64,000 bases of DNA, taken from Thraustochytrium sp. TN22 (Eukaryota > Sar > Bigyra > Thraustochytrida > Thraustochytriidae). The position numbers were made by a program, and so were the translations under genes. The stretch lies in assembly GCA_013306675.1 (NCBI GenBank), contig JABLUY010000001.1:248001-312000 (forward strand). The letters are read 5' to 3'. Within the stretch, counting starts at the first letter, position 1. Each line of letters opens with the position of its first letter. Positions 878 to 10,310 of this stretch are shown here, piece by piece. The notes under the pieces are model-generated. The model worked only from the letters and a program-made list of their open reading frames with translations, ran no database searches and had not been told where the DNA came from.

Positions 878-2929
878 CCTCCTCGTGGCGCGCCAGGCGC
901 TGCGCGGCCAAGCTTCTGCTCTGCCGCTGCCAGCAACCCAGGGCCGATCGATCGATCGATCGATCGATCGATCGAGAAAGACAGACAGAGGACGCTATGT
1001 AATTGAGCTCTTCACCTCCCTTGGTGGGTGGACAAAATTGTCAAATTTAAAGGATGGGACCGCCTGCATGTGTCGCGGGCAGAAAAAGGCGAAGGCCGCG
1101 GCGCGACAGCCTAACTTTTAAAAAAAGAGCGCAGTGAGGCTCAAGGAGTCAGAGCTAGTCTGCCTAACTTAGAGCATTGTACTAGGAAGTTGCTGGCAGC
1201 CGCATCTGGCAAGTTCCCATTTCATCATTCTCGCGCGAGCTTCCGTTGCGGCAGGTTCGCGATGATCTGGCTGGCTGGCAGGAGCAGTCAGACAGACAAG
1301 CTCTGCTCTTTAGGTTCGAGCGCATAGTCACCTCGTTGCCTCCCCAGGGCTGATCAACTAGCTGCCAGGCAGGCCAGTCACTGCAGCTCACCTTCCGAGG
1401 GGTGTTGTCCAGTCTGGGCGGAACGACTCCGAGCGACCACGAGCGTCAGCCGCCAGCCCTGGCAGCTGAGCCGAGCTTCTTGCGCTCTTCAGGCTTTCTC
1501 TCACTGTGCAGACAACAATTCGATCGCGCTGACGGCTTCGGTGGCACGCGCAGCGCACGCAACCTGGAGCCGTTCGAGTATTGCATCACCTCACCTAGCT
1601 CACTTGCCGGTTGGCAGTGAACAACCACCCACTTGGTCGCAGTGTCCGTGGCCGCGTGGCGGCGGTTGGATCCTGCTGCCCTGGCTGGCCTAACTACTCG
1701 TACCCCCCACCAGTGTCTGGCGTGTACGCCGTGTCGACGACGTGACCAGCGCTTGTACGGTACGACTCGAAGCCTCCACCCGAGTCCACCGGCCAGCCCA
1801 AGGCGGCGGCACTAGGCCTAGGCCTAAACCAACTCTTTCCAAGCTTTTGAAGCTACGGCGTCATCCCCTCCAGCTTCGCGAGCAACTTCCAGGATGCTTT
1901 CGATAACGGGATCGTCGCAACCTAAGCCTGCGGAATCGAGCCGTGGCGCCAGCGCGCTGCTCAGGCCCGCGCAGGCCCGCGGCAGGGCCGCGACAAGGCC
2001 GACGCGCGGCCGGCCCGCCGGCTGGCGCACACGCAGCGCAGCGCAGCGCAGCGCGCGCCGCGCGAGGCCTTGCGCAGCGCGATGACGGGCCCCGCGCAGC
2101 CGCGCCGCCACGCTTGACTGCTTTCAAACCTCGGCCTCCTCGTCCCGCGCGGGACGTGCCTCGTCCGTCCGCACTGGCGGCTGATCTCCTCTGCCTCCAC
2201 TGGGGCTTCTGGCGGCACGCGCCGCGGGCGGGGGCGCGGCGCCTCTCCCCTCGCCCCTCTGGGGGGCCAGCTCCCACCTACACGGAAAGAAAACGACCGA
2301 GACACGCCAGAGGGAGCCAGACCTGAACGCCACTGGGTGCAAGCGGGAGGCGGAGTGGGAGAAGAGGATTAAAGACAGCGGCGCGTGTCCGCGCGCGTCC
2401 GAAAAGGGCAAGCTGGTTGCGCCGTTCAAAACTCAATCCACTGCCGGAGCGCGCGCGCCGGGAGCGGCGGCGGCGGCGGCGGCGGCGGCGCGGGCGCGGC
2501 GTAGGGAAGCGCGGCGCGGCGTGGCGCGGCGCGGCGCGAGGGCGGCCGCCGCAAGCCGGCGCGGCGATAGAGCGACCGCGTGGCGGCTTGCGCTGCGCGT
2601 TCTCGCCCATTTCATCGATCGACTCGCGGCGACGCAAGCCGGCGCTTAGCAGAAGCGGCCGCCGATACCTTCCTCCCTCGCGCGCGGCGGCGCGGGCGCG
2701 CGGGCGCGGCGCGGGCGGCCGAGCGCGCGCGGGCGCGGCGGCGCGGCCGAGCCCCCCGCCCCCCCCTCCCCCCGCGCGGGGCGACCCGTCCGTGCCGGCG
2801 CGGCGACGGAGGCCGGCATCGGAGGCCGTGCACCGACGGCGCGTGCAAGCGCAAGCAGCAGCGTAGCAGCAACAGCGGTGGCAGCGAGAGGCAGGGCCAA
2901 GACGGCGGCGCGTCGGCCGAGCAGACAGC
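878..2929. other. Intergenic region between divergent hydrolase and myosin genes
   Basis: About 2 kb separates the two start codons. It holds a GATC tetranucleotide tract (945-975), ordinary mixed sequence to about 1900, then very GC-rich sequence with GGC and GCGCG runs to the myosin ATG, probably 5' untranslated DNA. The short open frames here resemble no protein I know and show no good start context. I found no RNA gene. Confidence 0.6.
945..975. repeat. (CGAT)n microsatellite
   Basis: A nearly perfect tetranucleotide run of about 7.5 copies lies 70 bp upstream of the hydrolase ATG. Each unit is self-complementary, so the tract is palindromic. Confidence 0.95.
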
Positions 2930-5900
2930 ATGGGGCGGTCGGCGACGGACCACCTGGACGTGGGCGCCGCGGTCTGGGTGCGCGATGACGAGGAGGCGTG
3001 GGTGCGCGGCGTGATCGTGGAGAAGAACGGGTCCCAGCTCAGCGTCAAGACGGACAACCGGCGCACGGTGCAGGCGAGCAAGGACGATGTGGAGTTCTGC
3101 TCGACGACGCCGCGGCAGGAGGAGAAGGTGGACGACCTGACGCAGCTGCCGGACCTGCACCAGGCGGCGCTGCTGAACACGCTGCACGTGCGGTTTGAAG
3201 CGGACAAGATTTACACGTTTAGCGGGGAGATCCTCATTGCGGTGAACCCGTTCAAGCGCATCGGCGGCCTGTATGAGCCGCGGAGCCTGGCCAAGTACGC
3301 GAACGCGGGCGTGGGCGAGGTGGAGCTCATGGCGCCGCACGCGTACCGCGTGGCCGGGGCGGCGTTCCGCGCCATGGGCATGTACAATGGGCGCAACCAG
3401 AGCATCATGGTGAGTGGCGAGAGTGGCGCTGGCAAGACGTACAACACCAAGGTGCTGCTCTCGTACCTGACTGTGGTGTCGTCGGGCGACGTGTCGCGCG
3501 GTATGGACGACTTCCGGGAGTCGCTGCGGCGCGCGTCGCGGCGGAAGACTACGCTGGCGGGCGCAAGCATAGCACAGCGCGTGCTGGAGGCCAACCCTCT
3601 CATGGAGGCCTTTGGCAACGCCAAGACGCTGCGCAACGACAACTCGTCGCGCTTTGGCAAGCTCATTGAGCTGGACTTTGACCAGCAGTCGTCGCGGCTC
3701 ATGGGCGCAGCCATCGACGTCTACTTGCTGGAGAAGGCACGGGTGGTGCACCAGCAGGAGGGCGAGCGCAACTACCACATCTTTTATGAGATGGCGGCCG
3801 GCATGTCGCGCAGCGAGAGGGAGGACCTGGACTTTCCCGACCTGCGCGACTGCCGCTACATTGAGTCGTCCACGATGGAGCGCGCCGATATCGACGACAA
3901 CACGCAGTGGAAGATGACGCGCGCGGCCTTTGACATCTTGGGCTTCTCGGACCAGGAGCGCACGCAGGTGCTGCGCGTCATGTCGGCCGTCCTTCACCTG
4001 GGCAACATCACCTTTGAGCCGCACAATCACGATGGCGCCGAGGGCAGCAAGGTGGCGCGCGATGCGCGCGACGCCCTGGCCAGCTGCGCTGCGGCCCTGG
4101 GCGTCGAGGAGGCGGAGCTTGTCAGTACGCTCACCACGCGCGGCATCAGCGTGGGCGGCGGCGGCTTTTTGGCGGCCCTCTCGGGCGGCCGCGGTTCCGA
4201 GGCGCTTGTCAAGCAGCACAACGTGACCCAGGCCGAGGAGGCGCGCGAGGCGCTGGCCATGGCGCTTTACGAGCGCACCTTTGGCTGGATCGTCTGGCGC
4301 ATCAACGAGGCCATCGGCGTGAGCGCCAAGACCACGCCGCAGAAGCGCGCGGCGCGCAAGAGCCGGCACGCCATGTCTCTGGCGCCGCCTCGCGGCGGCG
4401 GCGGCCGCGGCCGCACGACGGCCGAGCCGACGTACTATGACGACCACAGCATCGGCGTGCTGGACATCTTCGGCTTTGAGGTCTTCGAGTCCAACGGCTT
4501 CGAGCAGCTCATGATCAACTACACGAACGAGCGCCTTCAGGCGCAGTTCAACGAGCACATCTTCAAGCAGGAGGCGGCGCTCTTCGAGTCGGAGGGCCTG
4601 GACTGGGCCAGCATCGACTGGCCCGACAACCAGCTCACGCTGGACATGATCGAGACCAAGCCCATCGGCCTGCTCTCGTTGCTGGATGAAACCTGCCTCA
4701 TGGGTTCCGGCACCGACAAGAGCTTTGTGGCCAAGTTGTACCAGAACCTGGCCAAGGGCCGCTTCGCCGAGGTCTTCCGCGCTGATCGCAACCACCAGGT
4801 GCGCTTTCAGTTCGAGATCGCGCACTTTGCCGGCCCAGTGGTGTACGGCTCGCATGGCTTCATCGCCAAGAATAAGAACGAGCTGCGGCCCGAGGCCGTC
4901 GACCTGCTGCGCGGGTCCGAGGACCCGTGGCTGGCCATCTTGCTGCCGCCCGACGCCTCGGCGGCCGGTGGCGGCGCGGACGCGCAGGAGTACTTTACGC
5001 AGGTGGCCAACCGGCCCAAGAAGCAGCGGTCCAGCCTGCAGCGCCACGCGCGCGCCTCCCAGCGCGCCACGCGTCTGCAGCAAAAGACGGTCAGCAGCCA
5101 CTTCCGCACGCAGCTCTCCGTGGCGCTCAACCACATCAACGCCTCGCAGCCGCACTACATCCGCTGCATCAAGCCCAACGACCTCAACGTGGAGGCCATC
5201 TTTTCCCGGCCGCGCGTCGAGGAGCAGCTGGCCTACTCGGGTGTGCTCGAAGTCGTGCGCGTGGCGCGCGCTGGCTACCCGACGCGCTTCGCGCTGCGCG
5301 ACTTCGCCGACCGCTTCCACGTGCTCAGCGTGTCGCGGTCCTCGCGGCGCCGGTCCAAGAGCCGGGGCAAGTCGCGCCACCGCGACGCGGCTGACTACCG
5401 CGAGACCTGCGAGCGCATCGTCAAGACAGCCAAGCTCGAGAACGTGGTCGACTATCAGATCGGCCACACCAAGGTTTTCCTCAAGCCCTTTGCCTACACG
5501 GCGCTCGAGGTGGCCAAGGGCGAACGCATCCTGCGCTACGTGCTTGTTCTGCAGCGCAACGTGCGTATTTTTCTGCGCACCTACCGCGCCACCAAGAAGC
5601 TGCGCGCCGCCAAGAAGATCCAGCGCAACGTGCGCGGCTTCTTGGTGCGCCGCGACTACGGTCGCTTCCGCAAGGAGCGCCGCGCCGCCATCAACATCCA
5701 GCGCATCGCACGCGGCGTGCTGGCGCGCAAGCGCGTCATCCCGCTCATCGAGAAGCGCATCGCCGACGACAAGCGCCGCCGCGAGTCGGCCGCCGCGCGC
5801 ATCAAGAAGGCCTACCGCCGCAAGGTGCTCAAGGACCGCCTGCGCGAGATCCGCGAGGAGTCCGTGCGCCAGCGCAGCGCCATCATGCTGCAGAGCCTTG

Positions 5901-6730
5901 CGCGCGTGCTCAAGGCGCAAAAGATCGCCAACAACATGTACGCGGACCGCGTCGCCAACGACGCCGCGCGCACGCTCCAGGGCCTCGCGCGCGTCTTGGC
6001 CGCCAAGAAGACGCGAGAGATGCTCGAGGCCGAGCGCGAAGAGGAAGAGGAGGAGGAGCCCAACCTCTTCATCCTCTACGCCGGCCCGCTGCTCGTGCTC
6101 TTCTTCTTCACGCAGCCGCTGCTCATTCTTGGCCTGGTCGGCGTTGCCGGGGCCATGCTCGCCGGCGCCGGCATGGCCCTCGAGGCCGAGCAGCGCCAGC
6201 GCCTCGTGCAGGAGGACGGCGACGTGTACGTGCGCCGCGCGCGCCGCACGCGTCGCAACATGCGCCGCGCCGGCCGTGGCGACTACGTCGACGAGGACGA
6301 GGACGACTTTCTTGACGACGAGGAGGACTCCGAGCTCGGCGAGGAGGACCTCGACTTTTTCGCGCGCAATAAGGACAACAGCCGCAAGCTCACCCGCCAG
6401 CTCGCGCGCAACCGCCCGCGCGACCGCTCCGTGGGCGCGGCCTCCCAAAAGTCCAGCCGCTCGGCGCGGTCTGCCAAGTCGACCGCCTCGCGCCGGACCC
6501 AATCTTCCAAGTACTCTTCCGCCGCGGCGCCCTCGCCGGCGGCGCCATCGGCCTCGCGTCGCGCGACCCTGCGCGCCGCCTCGCCCTCGGCCAGCTCGCG
6601 CAAGCTCCCGCCCGCGCGCAAGGGCATTTCCTCGCGCAAGCTTGACATGTCCGCCTACGATGACTTCGACACCTACTTTACCGCTTCCAAGAAGAAGACC
6701 ACGCGTCGCGTCCGCGGCGGCCGCCCCTGA
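2930..6730 (+). CDS. Myosin heavy chain with IQ motifs and C-terminal transmembrane hairpin
   Basis: A 1266-residue single-exon unconventional myosin. Residues about 10-60 form an SH3-like N-terminal domain (VWVRDDEEAWVRGVI). The motor follows, with P-loop GESGAGKT (163-170), switch I NDNSSRFGK (236-244), switch II DIFGFE (about 511-516) and the actin-binding/SH helix region (HYIRCIKPND). The neck (about 870-1025) has roughly six IQ-like motifs, for example IQRNVRGFLVRR and IQRIARGVLARK, for calmodulin-type light chains. There is no long coiled coil, so it is probably monomeric. After an EEEEEEE stretch, residues about 1045-1085 are strongly hydrophobic in two blocks split by TQP, reading as a membrane hairpin. 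The tail has an acidic patch (DEDEDDFLDDEEDSE) and then a basic Ser/Arg-rich end. The ATG context (CAGCATGG) is good and no in-frame upstream ATG was seen. The motor assignment is certain; membrane insertion is inferred. Confidence 0.95.
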   Translation: MGRSATDHLDVGAAVWVRDDEEAWVRGVIVEKNGSQLSVKTDNRRTVQASKDDVEFCSTTPRQEEKVDDLTQLPDLHQAALLNTLHVRFEADKIYTFSGEILIAVNPFKRIGGLYEPRSLAKYANAGVGEVELMAPHAYRVAGAAFRAMGMYNGRNQSIMVSGESGAGKTYNTKVLLSYLTVVSSGDVSRGMDDFRESLRRASRRKTTLAGASIAQRVLEANPLMEAFGNAKTLRNDNSSRFGKLIELDFDQQSSRLMGAAIDVYLLEKARVVHQQEGERNYHIFYEMAAGMSRSEREDLDFPDLRDCRYIESSTMERADIDDNTQWKMTRAAFDILGFSDQERTQVLRVMSAVLHLGNITFEPHNHDGAEGSKVARDARDALASCAAALGVEEAELVSTLTTRGISVGGGGFLAALSGGRGSEALVKQHNVTQAEEAREALAMALYERTFGWIVWRINEAIGVSAKTTPQKRAARKSRHAMSLAPPRGGGGRGRTTAEPTYYDDHSIGVLDIFGFEVFESNGFEQLMINYTNERLQAQFNEHIFKQEAALFESEGLDWASIDWPDNQLTLDMIETKPIGLLSLLDETCLMGSGTDKSFVAKLYQNLAKGRFAEVFRADRNHQVRFQFEIAHFAGPVVYGSHGFIAKNKNELRPEAVDLLRGSEDPWLAILLPPDASAAGGGADAQEYFTQVANRPKKQRSSLQRHARASQRATRLQQKTVSSHFRTQLSVALNHINASQPHYIRCIKPNDLNVEAIFSRPRVEEQLAYSGVLEVVRVARAGYPTRFALRDFADRFHVLSVSRSSRRRSKSRGKSRHRDAADYRETCERIVKTAKLENVVDYQIGHTKVFLKPFAYTALEVAKGERILRYVLVLQRNVRIFLRTYRATKKLRAAKKIQRNVRGFLVRRDYGRFRKERRAAINIQRIARGVLARKRVIPLIEKRIADDKRRRESAAARIKKAYRRKVLKDRLREIREESVRQRSAIMLQSLARVLKAQKIANNMYADRVANDAARTLQGLARVLAAKKTREMLEAEREEEEEEEPNLFILYAGPLLVLFFFTQPLLILGLVGVAGAMLAGAGMALEAEQRQRLVQEDGDVYVRRARRTRRNMRRAGRGDYVDEDEDDFLDDEEDSELGEEDLDFFARNKDNSRKLTRQLARNRPRDRSVGAASQKSSRSARSAKSTASRRTQSSKYSSAAAPSPAAPSASRRATLRAASPSASSRKLPPARKGISSRKLDMSAYDDFDTYFTASKKKTTRRVRGGRP

Positions 6731-7709
6731 CTGACGAACTGATGAACATCTCGTGACCAGTAGCCTCCAGTAAAGAGTTAACCTCGTTTTGTTCTGTTGT
6801 GATTGCATGCATGCTCTCGCGCCGCCTTCGCTGACATGGACTGAGAGACGGGCTCAGACAGCCTCCGGCCCGGCCGTAAGTACGGACGCCGTCACGGTGC
6901 GAAACGCCGGCCCGCCGCCCGGGCCGCCGACCACGAGCGGGCGGGCCGCCGCGGCCATGCACTCCGGATAAACGTTAAGTTCACTCACTACGAGACGAGA
7001 GTCTACGGCGGATAGTCACTGTAGTAGCCAAAGTAGTGTAGTAGTTGGTCCCCCAAGCGCAGCGGGGCCTCCGAGTCCTCGCTGGCGAACCGGAGCCCCG
7101 AACAGAACACCGGAACCACTGGCAAGCAGCGCGCTGGAACTCCAATGCACTGTACAGCCTGCTACAGCCTGCCGCAGCCAGCGGGCGCCAGCGGCGGGCG
7201 GGCGACTCGGAGCGAGCGCGGCCACTGCAGGGCGAGCGCGGGCGAGCCTGTGTGCGAGTCGTGCGAGTGAGCCTGAGCGCGCCGTGCCCGAACAAGCGCC
7301 GGCAACCTTGCTGCGCCCGGCCCGGCCGTGCGTGAGTGAGCGAGCGCTCACGGCATCCTCGCCTCGCCACCCGCGCCCTGAGGCAGGCTGAAAGCAAGCC
7401 CAAACAAGGCCCGATCCCGCGCCCGGAAAAAGCGGCCTCGGCGACGCTCGGCTGTGCGAGCCTCGGCTGGCCGTGCGAGCGAGGCCGCCGCGCCGCAGGC
7501 CGCCGCCGCGCCGCGAGACCGGGGGCTGGCCGCCGGTGGCGCGCGCCCATCGAGGCCTCGGGCTGCCTGCCTGCACGTGCGTCACAGAGATTAATTAGTT
7601 AGCTACCAGAGCGAGCGAGCGAGGCCGCGCGCGGCGCGCGGCAGCGCGGCAGAGGCGGAGGCGCGCGCAGGGCGGCGGCGCGGCGGCGGTGGCGGCGGCG
7701 GCGCGGTCG
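6731..7709. other. Intergenic region between myosin and ankyrin genes
   Basis: About 980 bp between tandem genes. The first part would hold the myosin 3' UTR; from about 7180 it becomes GC-rich with repeated GCGAGC-type words up to the next ATG. No recognisable gene or structural RNA was seen. Confidence 0.55.
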
Positions 7710-10310
7710 ATGCGGGAGCGCGCGCGGTCGGCGGCGGGCGCGGCGCGGTCGGCGGCGCGCGCGCGCGGGCATCGCGGGTGGGCGGCGGCGCTGGGGGCGG
7801 CGGCGGCCGTGCAAGCGCGGCTGCGCGGCGCCGGCTGGTGCGCGGGCTGCAGCGCCGCGCGCGGAAGGCAGGCGGCGCTGCACAGAGACCTGCTGGAGGC
7901 AGCCGCGGCAGGCGACGTGGACCTGGTGAACAGGCTCGTCCTCCTGCTGGGCGCGGACGTGCGGCGCCTCGGGAGGCGCAGGCCGTACAAGGGGCTCTCG
8001 GCGCTGCACGTGGCGGCCGAGGCAGGCCACGAGGAGGTCTGCAGGAGCCTGCTGGAGTCGCATGCCGAGGTGAACGACGTCGCGACCCATGGCAGTGAAA
8101 AGGGCGCCACGCCGGCCATGCTCGCGGCTCGGGCCGGCCACGTTGACGTGTGCGTGCTGCTCGCGGCGCACGGCGCCGTCTGGGCCAAGGGCGATGCGGA
8201 GCGGTGTTTGCACGACGCGGCGCGCAAGCGCCGCGCGGCCATTTGCGCCTTCTTGCTTGACCATAGCGATGCCCAAGTGGACGCGCAGGACGAGGAGGGC
8301 AGGACAGCGCTGCTGCTGGCGGCCGCCTTTACACAGCGCGAGCAACCAATGCTGTCGCTCGCGTCCAGGGCTCTGCGCGCGAGAGAGGAGCGCAGCGCGC
8401 GCGCCAAGGAGGCAGCCGAACGCCTTGAGGTCTGCGATCTCCTGCTTGAGCGCGGCGCCGACCCCAACCACGCCGACCACCTCGGCCGGACCCCTTTGCT
8501 CAACGCCGCCGGCCACTCGAACGTTGCTCAAGCGCTCCTTCTCGCCGGCGCGCACGTCAACGAGCACGGCGGCCTCGAGGATGAGTCGGCGCTGCAAGTG
8601 GGTGCCTCCAAGCCAGGCTTCGTGCGTCTCATGATCGCCAACGGCGCCGATGTCAACGCGCGCTCGCGCCGCGGCACGACGCCCTTGCACACGGCCGCGG
8701 CCGCCGGCACGCGCAAGGCACACGAGGCCATCGCCTTGCTTCTGCAGGCCGGCGCGCGACCCGACGTCAAGGACCAGGACGGCCGCACGCCGCTGCACTA
8801 CGCGGCCGAGGCGCTGAACAGGGCCGCCTGCGCGGCGCTCCTTCAGCACGATAGCACTCCTCTGGACGCTCAAGACAACGCAGGCAATTCCGCGCTCATG
8901 GTGGCCATGCTGCAATACCGCGCGTCGAACCGATCGCGCGATATCATTGCCATTTATCGTCTCCTCAAGGACCGTGGCGCCGACCTCACCTTGGAAAATT
9001 ACCAGGGCCAGGACATGGTCTCGATCGCGCGCGTCAGTGGCATTCCAGCCTTCACCAAGCTCGTGCGCGGCGACCTCGGCCTCCCTTCGCTCCCGCCGAT
9101 TCCCGCAATGCCGCCGCCGCCGTCCTCCGAGATCGGAGACGACGACGATGACGAAAGCGAGCCAGAGCCCGTCCCGTCACACCTGGCTGAGTCCGCTCGA
9201 GGTGGCGCCGGCGACGGCGCGGCTCGCGGCCGCGGCCGACGCCGGCGGCCTCGTCCCCGCCCTCCAGCCGACGCCAAAGCGGCGGCCGTCGGGCCCCTCA
9301 TGGTGGAGGTCATGAGCGACAGCGACGACGAGGAGGATACTGACGATCTGCAAGAAGAGACCGAGTATCACCAGGAAGATGCCGGTTACGCCGACCCACG
9401 GCACGTCGAGGCCGAAATGGAGCACTTGGATGATGCGACCGAGCTCTCTCATGACGAAGGCGAGCTCGCTTACGATGAAGGCGAGTTGGCTCACGACGCG
9501 GAGCTCGCGCACGACGAAGCGGAGCTCGCTCGCGAAGAAGGGGCGCTTTCTGACGTAGAGGAAGGCAAAGAGAGTCAGGATGGGGTTGCCGAAGGAGAGG
9601 AAGAGCAGGCTGCTATTTTGGAGGAGGAGGAGGAGGAGGAGGAGGAGGAGGTGGTGGTGGTGGTGGTGGTGGATGGGGAGGAGAGGTATGACGTCAACGA
9701 CGACGATGACGACGACGAAGGCGAGGAGGAAGACCATCATCAGGGGGAGGAGGGCGACGAGGACGAGGACGAGGACGAGGGCGATGAAGATGAAGATGAG
9801 CAGGTGGACATCAAGCAAGCCGAGAGCGAGGCGGCCGAGCACCCTGATGCAACACCGGCCACCCGACCCCGATCGGACGCTTCCATATCTCTTGCAGATA
9901 GCGAGATGGAGCACGAAGATGATGCAGACGCCCTGGCCGATCAAGGGGATGAACACGACAGTGCGGGTTCCGAACCTGAGCTGCCCGTGCAGCCTGCGTT
10001 TATGTACTTTCTCGCTGTCCTGCGGCTGAGACACCTGGCTCAGCCCCTGGCACGCCTTGGGATTTCACGAGTTGGCCATCTGAGTGCGCTGGACGACGAC
10101 GACATGGACGGTCTGCTCCTGTCCAGCGCTGAGCGTGCACGCCTTCGCAACGCGGTTGTGGGTGCGCGACAGAGCGCGTCGGGGCGCACGCTGGGCACCG
10201 GCGCTTCTTCACGGCGTGCAGACATTGACGATTATGAATACAATGATGACCACGACGACGACGAGGAGGAGGACCCAACTCTGGTGCAGCCGGAACGCCT
10301 CGGGCGATGA
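7710..10310 (+). CDS. Ankyrin-repeat protein with acidic low-complexity region and C-terminal SAM-like domain
   Basis: The frame is open from 7689, but that codon is GTG. The first in-frame ATG is 7710, giving 866 residues. After a basic N-terminus, residues about 55-450 hold some ten ankyrin repeats with the usual G-TPLH-AA and LL--GAD patterns (LSALHVAAEAGHEEV, TTPLHTAAAAGTRK, RTPLHYAAEALNRA). Residues about 475-750 are strongly acidic, with short tandem units of the type ELAHDEG (about 578-615), an E10-V7 run and D/E clusters. Residues about 763-820 (LGISRVGHLSALDDDDMDGL, then SSAERARLRNAV) match the C-terminal half of a SAM domain, a helical interaction module. The last residues are acidic again. 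It is probably a scaffold; partners are unknown. Its stop lies 56 bp from the convergent receptor's stop. Confidence 0.85.
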   Translation: MRERARSAAGAARSAARARGHRGWAAALGAAAAVQARLRGAGWCAGCSAARGRQAALHRDLLEAAAAGDVDLVNRLVLLLGADVRRLGRRRPYKGLSALHVAAEAGHEEVCRSLLESHAEVNDVATHGSEKGATPAMLAARAGHVDVCVLLAAHGAVWAKGDAERCLHDAARKRRAAICAFLLDHSDAQVDAQDEEGRTALLLAAAFTQREQPMLSLASRALRAREERSARAKEAAERLEVCDLLLERGADPNHADHLGRTPLLNAAGHSNVAQALLLAGAHVNEHGGLEDESALQVGASKPGFVRLMIANGADVNARSRRGTTPLHTAAAAGTRKAHEAIALLLQAGARPDVKDQDGRTPLHYAAEALNRAACAALLQHDSTPLDAQDNAGNSALMVAMLQYRASNRSRDIIAIYRLLKDRGADLTLENYQGQDMVSIARVSGIPAFTKLVRGDLGLPSLPPIPAMPPPPSSEIGDDDDDESEPEPVPSHLAESARGGAGDGAARGRGRRRRPRPRPPADAKAAAVGPLMVEVMSDSDDEEDTDDLQEETEYHQEDAGYADPRHVEAEMEHLDDATELSHDEGELAYDEGELAHDAELAHDEAELAREEGALSDVEEGKESQDGVAEGEEEQAAILEEEEEEEEEEVVVVVVVDGEERYDVNDDDDDDEGEEEDHHQGEEGDEDEDEDEGDEDEDEQVDIKQAESEAAEHPDATPATRPRSDASISLADSEMEHEDDADALADQGDEHDSAGSEPELPVQPAFMYFLAVLRLRHLAQPLARLGISRVGHLSALDDDDMDGLLLSSAERARLRNAVVGARQSASGRTLGTGASSRRADIDDYEYNDDHDDDEEEDPTLVQPERLGR
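9621..9671 (+). repeat. (GAG)10(GTG)7 compound trinucleotide repeat in coding sequence
   Basis: Ten GAG codons run directly into seven GTG codons inside the ankyrin protein, giving ten Glu followed by seven Val. A single A-to-T change that then spread by slippage would explain the junction. Confidence 0.95.

Follow-up and report, generated by a model that had tools for sequence, protein, structure and literature searches.

Most myosins bind membranes via tail domains, lipids or receptors, and the question raised by the present locus is whether a myosin motor could be embedded in the membrane by its own polypeptide. In the window, that is, the whole stretch of 64,000 nucleotides analysed, one open frame encodes a myosin (P0001) with a long hydrophobic stretch behind its neck, and a reading made from the letters alone (hereafter the sequence-only reading) had taken this protein for a probable integral-membrane myosin without an enzyme domain. 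Judging from its sequence, P0001 is indeed a myosin in which a hairpin is probably embedded in the membrane, and Pfam at curated cut-offs shows solely Myosin_N, the motor and IQ motifs, with no enzyme domain in the tail.

The features of the gene are collected in Table 1. The motor is complete, as expected of a member of the myosin superfamily: a script search found the P-loop (GESGAGKT), switch 1 (NDNSSRFGK) and switch 2 (DIFGFE), and PF00063 matches in two stretches, scoring 670 bits in all with E 4.2e-201. Glu 424, located 16 places before EALAM, is presumably the acidic residue at the TEDS position. The motor announced by the sequence-only reading is thus present, while its six IQ motifs are recovered less uniformly: the relaxed pattern gives five, two of these being strict, the sixth (LQRNVRIFLR at 874) was recognised by eye, and Pfam reports two IQ stretches in the neck. 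The motor is presumably non-dimerising, since Pfam shows no coiled-coil domain. Pfam shows no chitin-synthase or other enzyme tail; a scan to E 1 gave no chitin synthase, CBS or PB1 domain, and the NCBIfam search gave 0 families.

Table 1. Features of the P0001 gene; positions are those of the window.
Feature	Residues	Position	Strand	Basis
Single open frame of myosin P0001, 1266 aa plus stop		2930..6730	+	read directly; 77% identity over length to Hondaea fermentalgiana P0002
N-terminal SH3-like domain	10-54	2957..3091	+	Pfam PF02736, E 3.4e-12
Myosin motor domain	67 to about 860	3128..5509	+	Pfam PF00063, two stretches; the motor end is an estimate
Neck, six IQ or IQ-like repeats	874-1030	5549..6019	+	Pfam, patterns, first repeat by eye
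Acidic run EEEEEEE, then P	1037-1043	6038..6058	+	sequence
Hydrophobic helix 1 (predicted), LFILYAGPLLVLFFFT	1046-1061	6065..6112	+	octanol sum -13.3; AlphaFold2 helix
Turn QP	1062-1063	6113..6118	+	one-residue helix break at 1062 in the AlphaFold2 model
Hydrophobic, glycine-rich helix 2 (predicted), LLILGLVGVAGAMLAGAGMAL	1064-1084	6119..6181	+	octanol sum -2.6; AlphaFold2 helix
Post-hairpin helix (predicted) with basic patch RRARRTRRNMRR	1085-1115	6182..6274	+	net charge +6 over 1086-1115
Acidic-aromatic motif DLDFF, behind an acidic tract	1140-1144	6347..6361	+	motif scan
Second acidic-aromatic motif DFDTYF	1245-1250	6662..6679	+	motif scan, alignment

The hydrophobic stretch comprises 41 residues (1045-1085, nucleotides 6062-6184), and the two blocks described by the sequence-only reading, LFILYAGPLLVLFFFT and LLILGLVGVAGAMLAGAGMAL, are seen in it, separated by QP inside the TQP, as is the acidic run in front of them. 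Contrary to that reading, the protein does not end in the hairpin, since 181 residues lie C-terminal to the stretch. What had been called a basic tail begins with a basic patch (about 1102-1114), but continues with an acidic tract and then a long S/R/K-rich tail. The helix predicted behind the hairpin has a hydrophobic moment of 0.42 (18 residues from 1100). Farther downstream, an open frame of 873 aa (7689-10310, plus strand) appears ankyrin-repeat-like and then runs into long acidic and valine runs.

The Kyte-Doolittle peak of the stretch is 2.39 for 19 residues, the next separate stretch of the protein reaching 1.15, and the best window (1054-1072) straddles the TQP. On the Wimley-White octanol scale, 23 residues sum to -16.45. 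With its 16 residues helix 1 is short, with LFILYAGPLLVLFFFT uninterrupted and without a polar face; helix 2 is marginal, being weakly hydrophobic on the octanol scale. Among 5000 shuffles of residues 871-1266 (396 residues), 5 attained the 19-residue peak and none attained the best mean over 41 residues; for the whole protein, the respective numbers were 36 and 0 of 5000. Hence it is the length, rather than any one window, that sets the stretch beyond chance. A tail-peak threshold of 1.5 is unspecific, as 12 plant-type PF01843 tails also pass it (1.55-1.73), and we take these tails to be soluble dilute-domain helices. Since they and even a member of the clade described below (P0017, 1.72) have such values, hydropathy alone does not prove a membrane helix.

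The sequence-only reading had suggested searching for the same tail in other labyrinthulomycete and stramenopile myosins. Two protein searches, with the tail of P0001 and with that of the most distant orthologue, gave the same five relatives (P0002-P0006) among lists of at most 120 proteins, the searches with the P0001 tail and the motor scoring the candidates that share most words. P0005 and P0006 are near-identical, leaving four distinct orthologues (P0002-P0005). All five relatives carry the stretch in a gap-free alignment, and its absence from all orthologues is ruled out. Residues 1045-1085 are 88, 73, 68 and 46% identical to P0002, P0003, P0004 and P0005, respectively, with no gap; for the motor the values are 80, 78, 64 and 52%, and for residues 1097-1240 they fall to 46, 41, 31 and 6%, with 20 to 101 gap positions. 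By these identities, the hairpin evolves like the motor and unlike the tail behind it. The nearest named protein is 'Myosin-6' of Hondaea fermentalgiana (P0002), an orthologue with the same architecture and hairpin; its name is generic and does not reflect the hairpin. The turn proline occupies the same place in P0002-P0006, P0012 and P0013 and is missing in P0007. P0007-P0010 lack most of the IQ repeats, and a long charged stretch separates their motor from the hairpin, while an IQ-like repeat adjoining the hairpin and the hairpin itself are retained. As most of the neck is replaced there and the hairpin kept, the anchor is more stable than the lever.

Farther from P0001, the motor search scored 7986 candidates, and the tails of the best 120 listed and of P0001 were scanned. 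Among these 121 proteins (the best 120 of 7986 scored, and P0001), 46 have a tail peak of at least 1.5, and 12 of the 46 are plant-type with a PF01843 tail. The nearest relatives (P0002-P0010 and P0012-P0020) all pass (18 of 18, peaks 1.72-2.82), and in most of them the peak belongs to an identifiable pair, whose first helix contains a proline and which often has another at the turn.

The motor tree was built with 25 motors of the same genome besides that of the window (C2 was dropped as too weak, C55 lay below the cut-off, and 18 others were unfetched); near-duplicates (P0006, P0008) and odd or partial sequences (P0011, P0022, P0034, P0048) were dropped, and most of P0051-P0121 were unused. 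In the tree of 76 rows, the 19 rows labelled as hairpin-bearing require two changes, and none of 500 shuffles is as low. In a tree of 40 rows, which is our own selection from the 76, there is a clade of 22 rows (support 100/100), defined with P0001 in it, and the hydrophobic pair occurs in 20 of the 22 if one counts P0030, whose weak second helix was aligned by eye with that of the motor C301 described below. P0001 has both attributes by which we assign proteins to the hairpin clade, a motor within these 22 rows and a hydrophobic pair after the neck. The sister group (six rows, join support 91/94) has no adjacent hydrophobic pair in any row; one of its rows, P0023, has two far-apart Gly/Ala-rich peaks (1.52 and 1.84), for which the octanol sums are above +5, that is, unfavourable.

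Two clade members, P0021 (Hondaea) and P0026, show no pair in the predicted proteins, and both loss and faulty gene models are possible. On the tree, one gain and one loss (in P0021 with P0026) would explain the distribution of the pair. The clade is likely restricted to labyrinthulomycetes, judging by its few named rows, which are P0002, P0015 and P0021 from Hondaea and P0014. The latter is listed for the dinoflagellate Durusdinium, on a contig of 10 kb, and the simplest reading is that it may be a labyrinthulomycete contamination. Outside the clade, two myosins resemble tail-anchored proteins in having a single hydrophobic segment at the extreme C-terminus; it starts at 1506 in P0037 (1528 residues) and at 1362 in P0049 (1380 residues).

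The genome itself (37.9 Mb, 453 contigs) has at least 66 motor matches, grouped into at least 46 places, many of which lie in a single long open frame; for a single-celled organism this myosin repertoire is very large. The hairpin of P0001 has no second copy in it, as a 70-residue hairpin query matches itself alone. The paralogous hairpins are too diverged for this query and were found by reading the tails of 44 other motors, each within one open frame (tails beyond an intron would be missed), at a threshold of 1.6 for 24 motors and then of 1.3 for 10 and 10 more; C55 was fetched and left unscored, its motor being below the cut-off. Two of the 44 tails have adjacent hydrophobic pairs, and both motors belong to the hairpin clade: C199 (L041 2-946, plus strand; VLVWVVPIATLYFLPTIIG and LMPLFAAMLASGMLLGGAG, peaks 2.06 and 1.62) and C301 (L045 145-1998, minus strand; ILAAFGLFVVLIPLVFALG and ILTYATALAMVAWIWFHVF, peaks 2.74 and 1.68). 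Other peaks were not counted as hairpins, namely those of C11 (1.62) and C184 (1.90), both Ala-rich, C187 (1.54 and 1.46, each in its own frame), C353 (1.49 and 1.34), C99 (1.49) and C89 (1.37 twice). The hairpin of C199 is longer, with a short turn between the helices, and is preceded by an arginine run and a PHFQRWLDYVMRK-like element common to P0014-P0017. C301 represents a third hairpin subfamily, with the pair near the C-terminus behind a long charged low-complexity tail; its Hondaea relative is P0021, whose predicted protein has no such pair. The clade comprises at least three subfamilies, found in thraustochytrid-type genomes.

A structure model of the tail had also been proposed by the sequence-only reading, and AlphaFold2, run on the P0001 tail with seven homologues, predicts a helix on either side of the turn: 1046-1061 (model residues 61-76) and 1063-1114 (78-129), with one non-helical residue between them. 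The block pLDDT in the hairpin is 80-83, decreasing to 69 at its end, in a model of low overall confidence (mean 60, pTM 0.21). For the C199-type tail (P0015 with four relatives), the predicted helices are 55-83 and 87-119, hence 29 and 33 residues long, joined by a three-residue turn; the block pLDDT stays at 74-83 as far as residue 100 and then drops to 56, the overall confidence being low here too (mean 64, pTM 0.21). The break between the helices and the hydrophobic length suggest that the two helices would pack antiparallel. Foldseek gave 0 matches for the P0001 model, which is weak evidence at such model quality. No known hairpin family was matched by P0001, either in Pfam or in a comparison of the tail profile with solved structures. 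Up to E 10, the latter gave eight weak matches, of which seven are GPCR chains (the best at E 0.005) and the eighth is a ribosomal protein; we read them as compositional.

On this basis we favour, with a probability of roughly 0.7, the reading that P0001 is a motor with intact catalytic signatures, probably non-dimerising, that is anchored directly in a membrane by a two-helix hairpin. For the predicted helices we infer membrane insertion, topology, cargo membrane and function as follows. After the neck, the 41-residue stretch would fold into two helices around a tight QP turn and enter the membrane from the cytosol, leaving the motor, the neck and the C-tail all cytosolic. For the motor and the IQ neck this must be so, since they meet actin. 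The C-tail of P0001 has no Cys and no N-glycosylation sequon, as would suit a cytosolic tail, and the nine other clade tails counted have no Cys and 0-2 sequons each. Of the ten tails counted, seven have 0 or 1 sequon and one has 2, so that those with sequons may be glycosylated in the lumen. Among ten clade sequences scanned for the acidic-aromatic motifs, five have two copies (P0001-P0005), two have one (P0007, P0009), and in three none was found (P0010, P0012, P0013). The Cys-free, sequon-poor tail and these motifs, as well as the two longer helices with a short turn in the C199-type proteins, favour a hairpin whose two ends are cytosolic. With its six IQ repeats, the long lever would then pull the membrane along actin, or hold it there, with no adaptor or cargo receptor; the two acidic-aromatic motifs may recruit partners or regulate, and P0001 motors would work non-dimerised, in groups on a membrane.

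The hairpin could sit in the membrane in two ways. It could span the bilayer as a pair of helices, or it could be a monotopic wedge in one leaflet, similar to oleosins or reticulons of lipid droplets and the ER, and in the latter case the motor would move or shape lipid droplets or ER tubules. Short helices, split at a proline turn and with their two ends in the cytosol, are reminiscent of monotopic hairpin proteins, and thraustochytrids are oleaginous. Still, the lack of a match to a known hairpin family and the C199-type helices, which are long enough to span, speak against the wedge, and we consider it the unlikelier variant, although the present data may fit either.

If, alternatively, a single helix spanned the bilayer, the last about 180 residues would be lumenal. 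This would agree with the position of the best window over the TQP, with the weak hydrophobicity of helix 2 and with the class-XXIX myosins (see below), which carry a C-terminal transmembrane domain. However, 41 hydrophobic residues with a central proline exceed one pass, a short turn divides two separate helices in the C199-type relatives, Cys is absent from all ten tails counted, with 0-2 sequons in each, and the tail, with its basic, acidic and Ser/Arg-rich parts and its conserved acidic-aromatic motifs, has the appearance of a cytosolic one; hence we regard the single-pass topology as improbable. Slightly less probable still is a soluble buried segment, for instance an autoinhibitory tail packing on the motor or on a partner. 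The twelve PF01843 tails, which are of a soluble type, and the low confidence of the P0001 tail model would allow for it, but LFILYAGPLLVLFFFT offers no polar face, and pairs that recur across the clade while their sequence diverges follow the pattern of membrane helices and not of a docking surface; the 0 solved folds found by Foldseek for the tail model point, weakly, in the same direction. As for an unspliced intron or an assembly error yielding a hydrophobic frame, nothing was found in favour, and this origin can be dismissed: GC3 is 0.936 in the hairpin, compared with 0.911, 0.929 and 0.892 for motor, neck and C-tail, respectively, there is no GTRAG word between codons 1001 and 1110 of the genomic sequence, so that the hairpin looks like ordinary coding sequence and shows no sign of being spliced out, and homologous residues recur gap-free in independent sources.

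The hairpin of P0001 has then to be compared with the known membrane-bound myosins. The sequence-only reading named the chitin-synthase myosins as the known exception, which is incomplete. Those of fungal class XVII and of class 36 of molluscs, annelids and rotifers combine a motor with membrane helices (PMC5583752, PMC3942036, PMC2375034); they differ from P0001 in having a chitin synthase, with 12 transmembrane domains in the mollusc protein. The class-XXIX stramenopile myosins are described with IQ motifs, a C-terminal transmembrane domain, and CBS and PB1 domains (Odronitz & Kollmar 2007, PMC2375034). They are like P0001 in being stramenopile myosins with IQ motifs and with a transmembrane domain (in P0001 a probable one) in the tail. 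P0001 differs in its six IQ-like repeats, in a hydrophobic hairpin that is internal, with 181 residues still to follow, and in lacking CBS and PB1. Among the at least 26 CBS matches listed in the genome, none falls at any of the 46 motor places. In MYO19, the MyMOMA tail contains a segment for putative monotopic insertion (PMC9929473); compared by description, it differs in its three IQ motifs and Miro-binding segment from P0001 with its 41-residue hydrophobic hairpin. As described, class XXIX, classes XVII and 36, and MYO19 all differ from P0001 in architecture.

A myosin survey of 2017 covered labyrinthulomycetes and ran TMHMM (PMC5583752). Its main text has the word "transmembrane" three times (for the mollusc class, in the method and in a reference) and none for a labyrinthulomycete class; the region may possibly be drawn already in the supplement with the classification details. 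Among the open-licence papers listed in literature searches, a membrane myosin from labyrinthulomycetes is mentioned in none of the titles and abstract openings. The parts of PMC5795050 and PMC10983653 consulted do not describe such a protein, the latter having a class-I myosin transcript only.

The C-tail could also contact other membranes. The FFAT consensus is given as EFFDAxE with an upstream acidic tract (PMC8306308). P0001 has DFFARNK behind an acidic tract, where position 1 is acidic (D for E) and FF fits, but positions 4, 5 and 7 do not; because of these core mismatches, P0001 is not counted as an FFAT-motif protein, that is, a VAP ligand. The MSP domain family, which binds FFAT, is represented in the genome by three matches, and together with the FFAT-like motif they may serve as a lead only.

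As to the membrane moved, the ectoplasmic net extends the plasma membrane and contains an actin cytoskeleton, and the bothrosome joins it to the cytoplasm and the ER (PMC12221091). A membrane-embedded motor would be a natural candidate to move the membrane of this net, and our guess is that P0001 binds the endomembrane system feeding it. The recent candidate list from the proteomics of the net retained just proteins without a high-scoring homologue outside the group (PMC12221091), and a myosin motor would be excluded from it by this rule. It is a long shot that the labyrinthulomycetes have a class of self-anchoring myosins, with subfamilies sharing one ancestral hairpin, that are motorised tethers (the hairpin in one membrane, the FFAT-like motifs on a second, the motor on actin) and drive ER-derived membrane through the bothrosome into the net.

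If the motor itself is integral in the membrane, the adaptor layer is removed and the force on actin would pass straight into the lipid bilayer. The hairpin clade, with its at least three diverged subfamilies, would then provide concrete and testable candidates for the motors behind the unexplained traffic of membrane in the ectoplasmic net.
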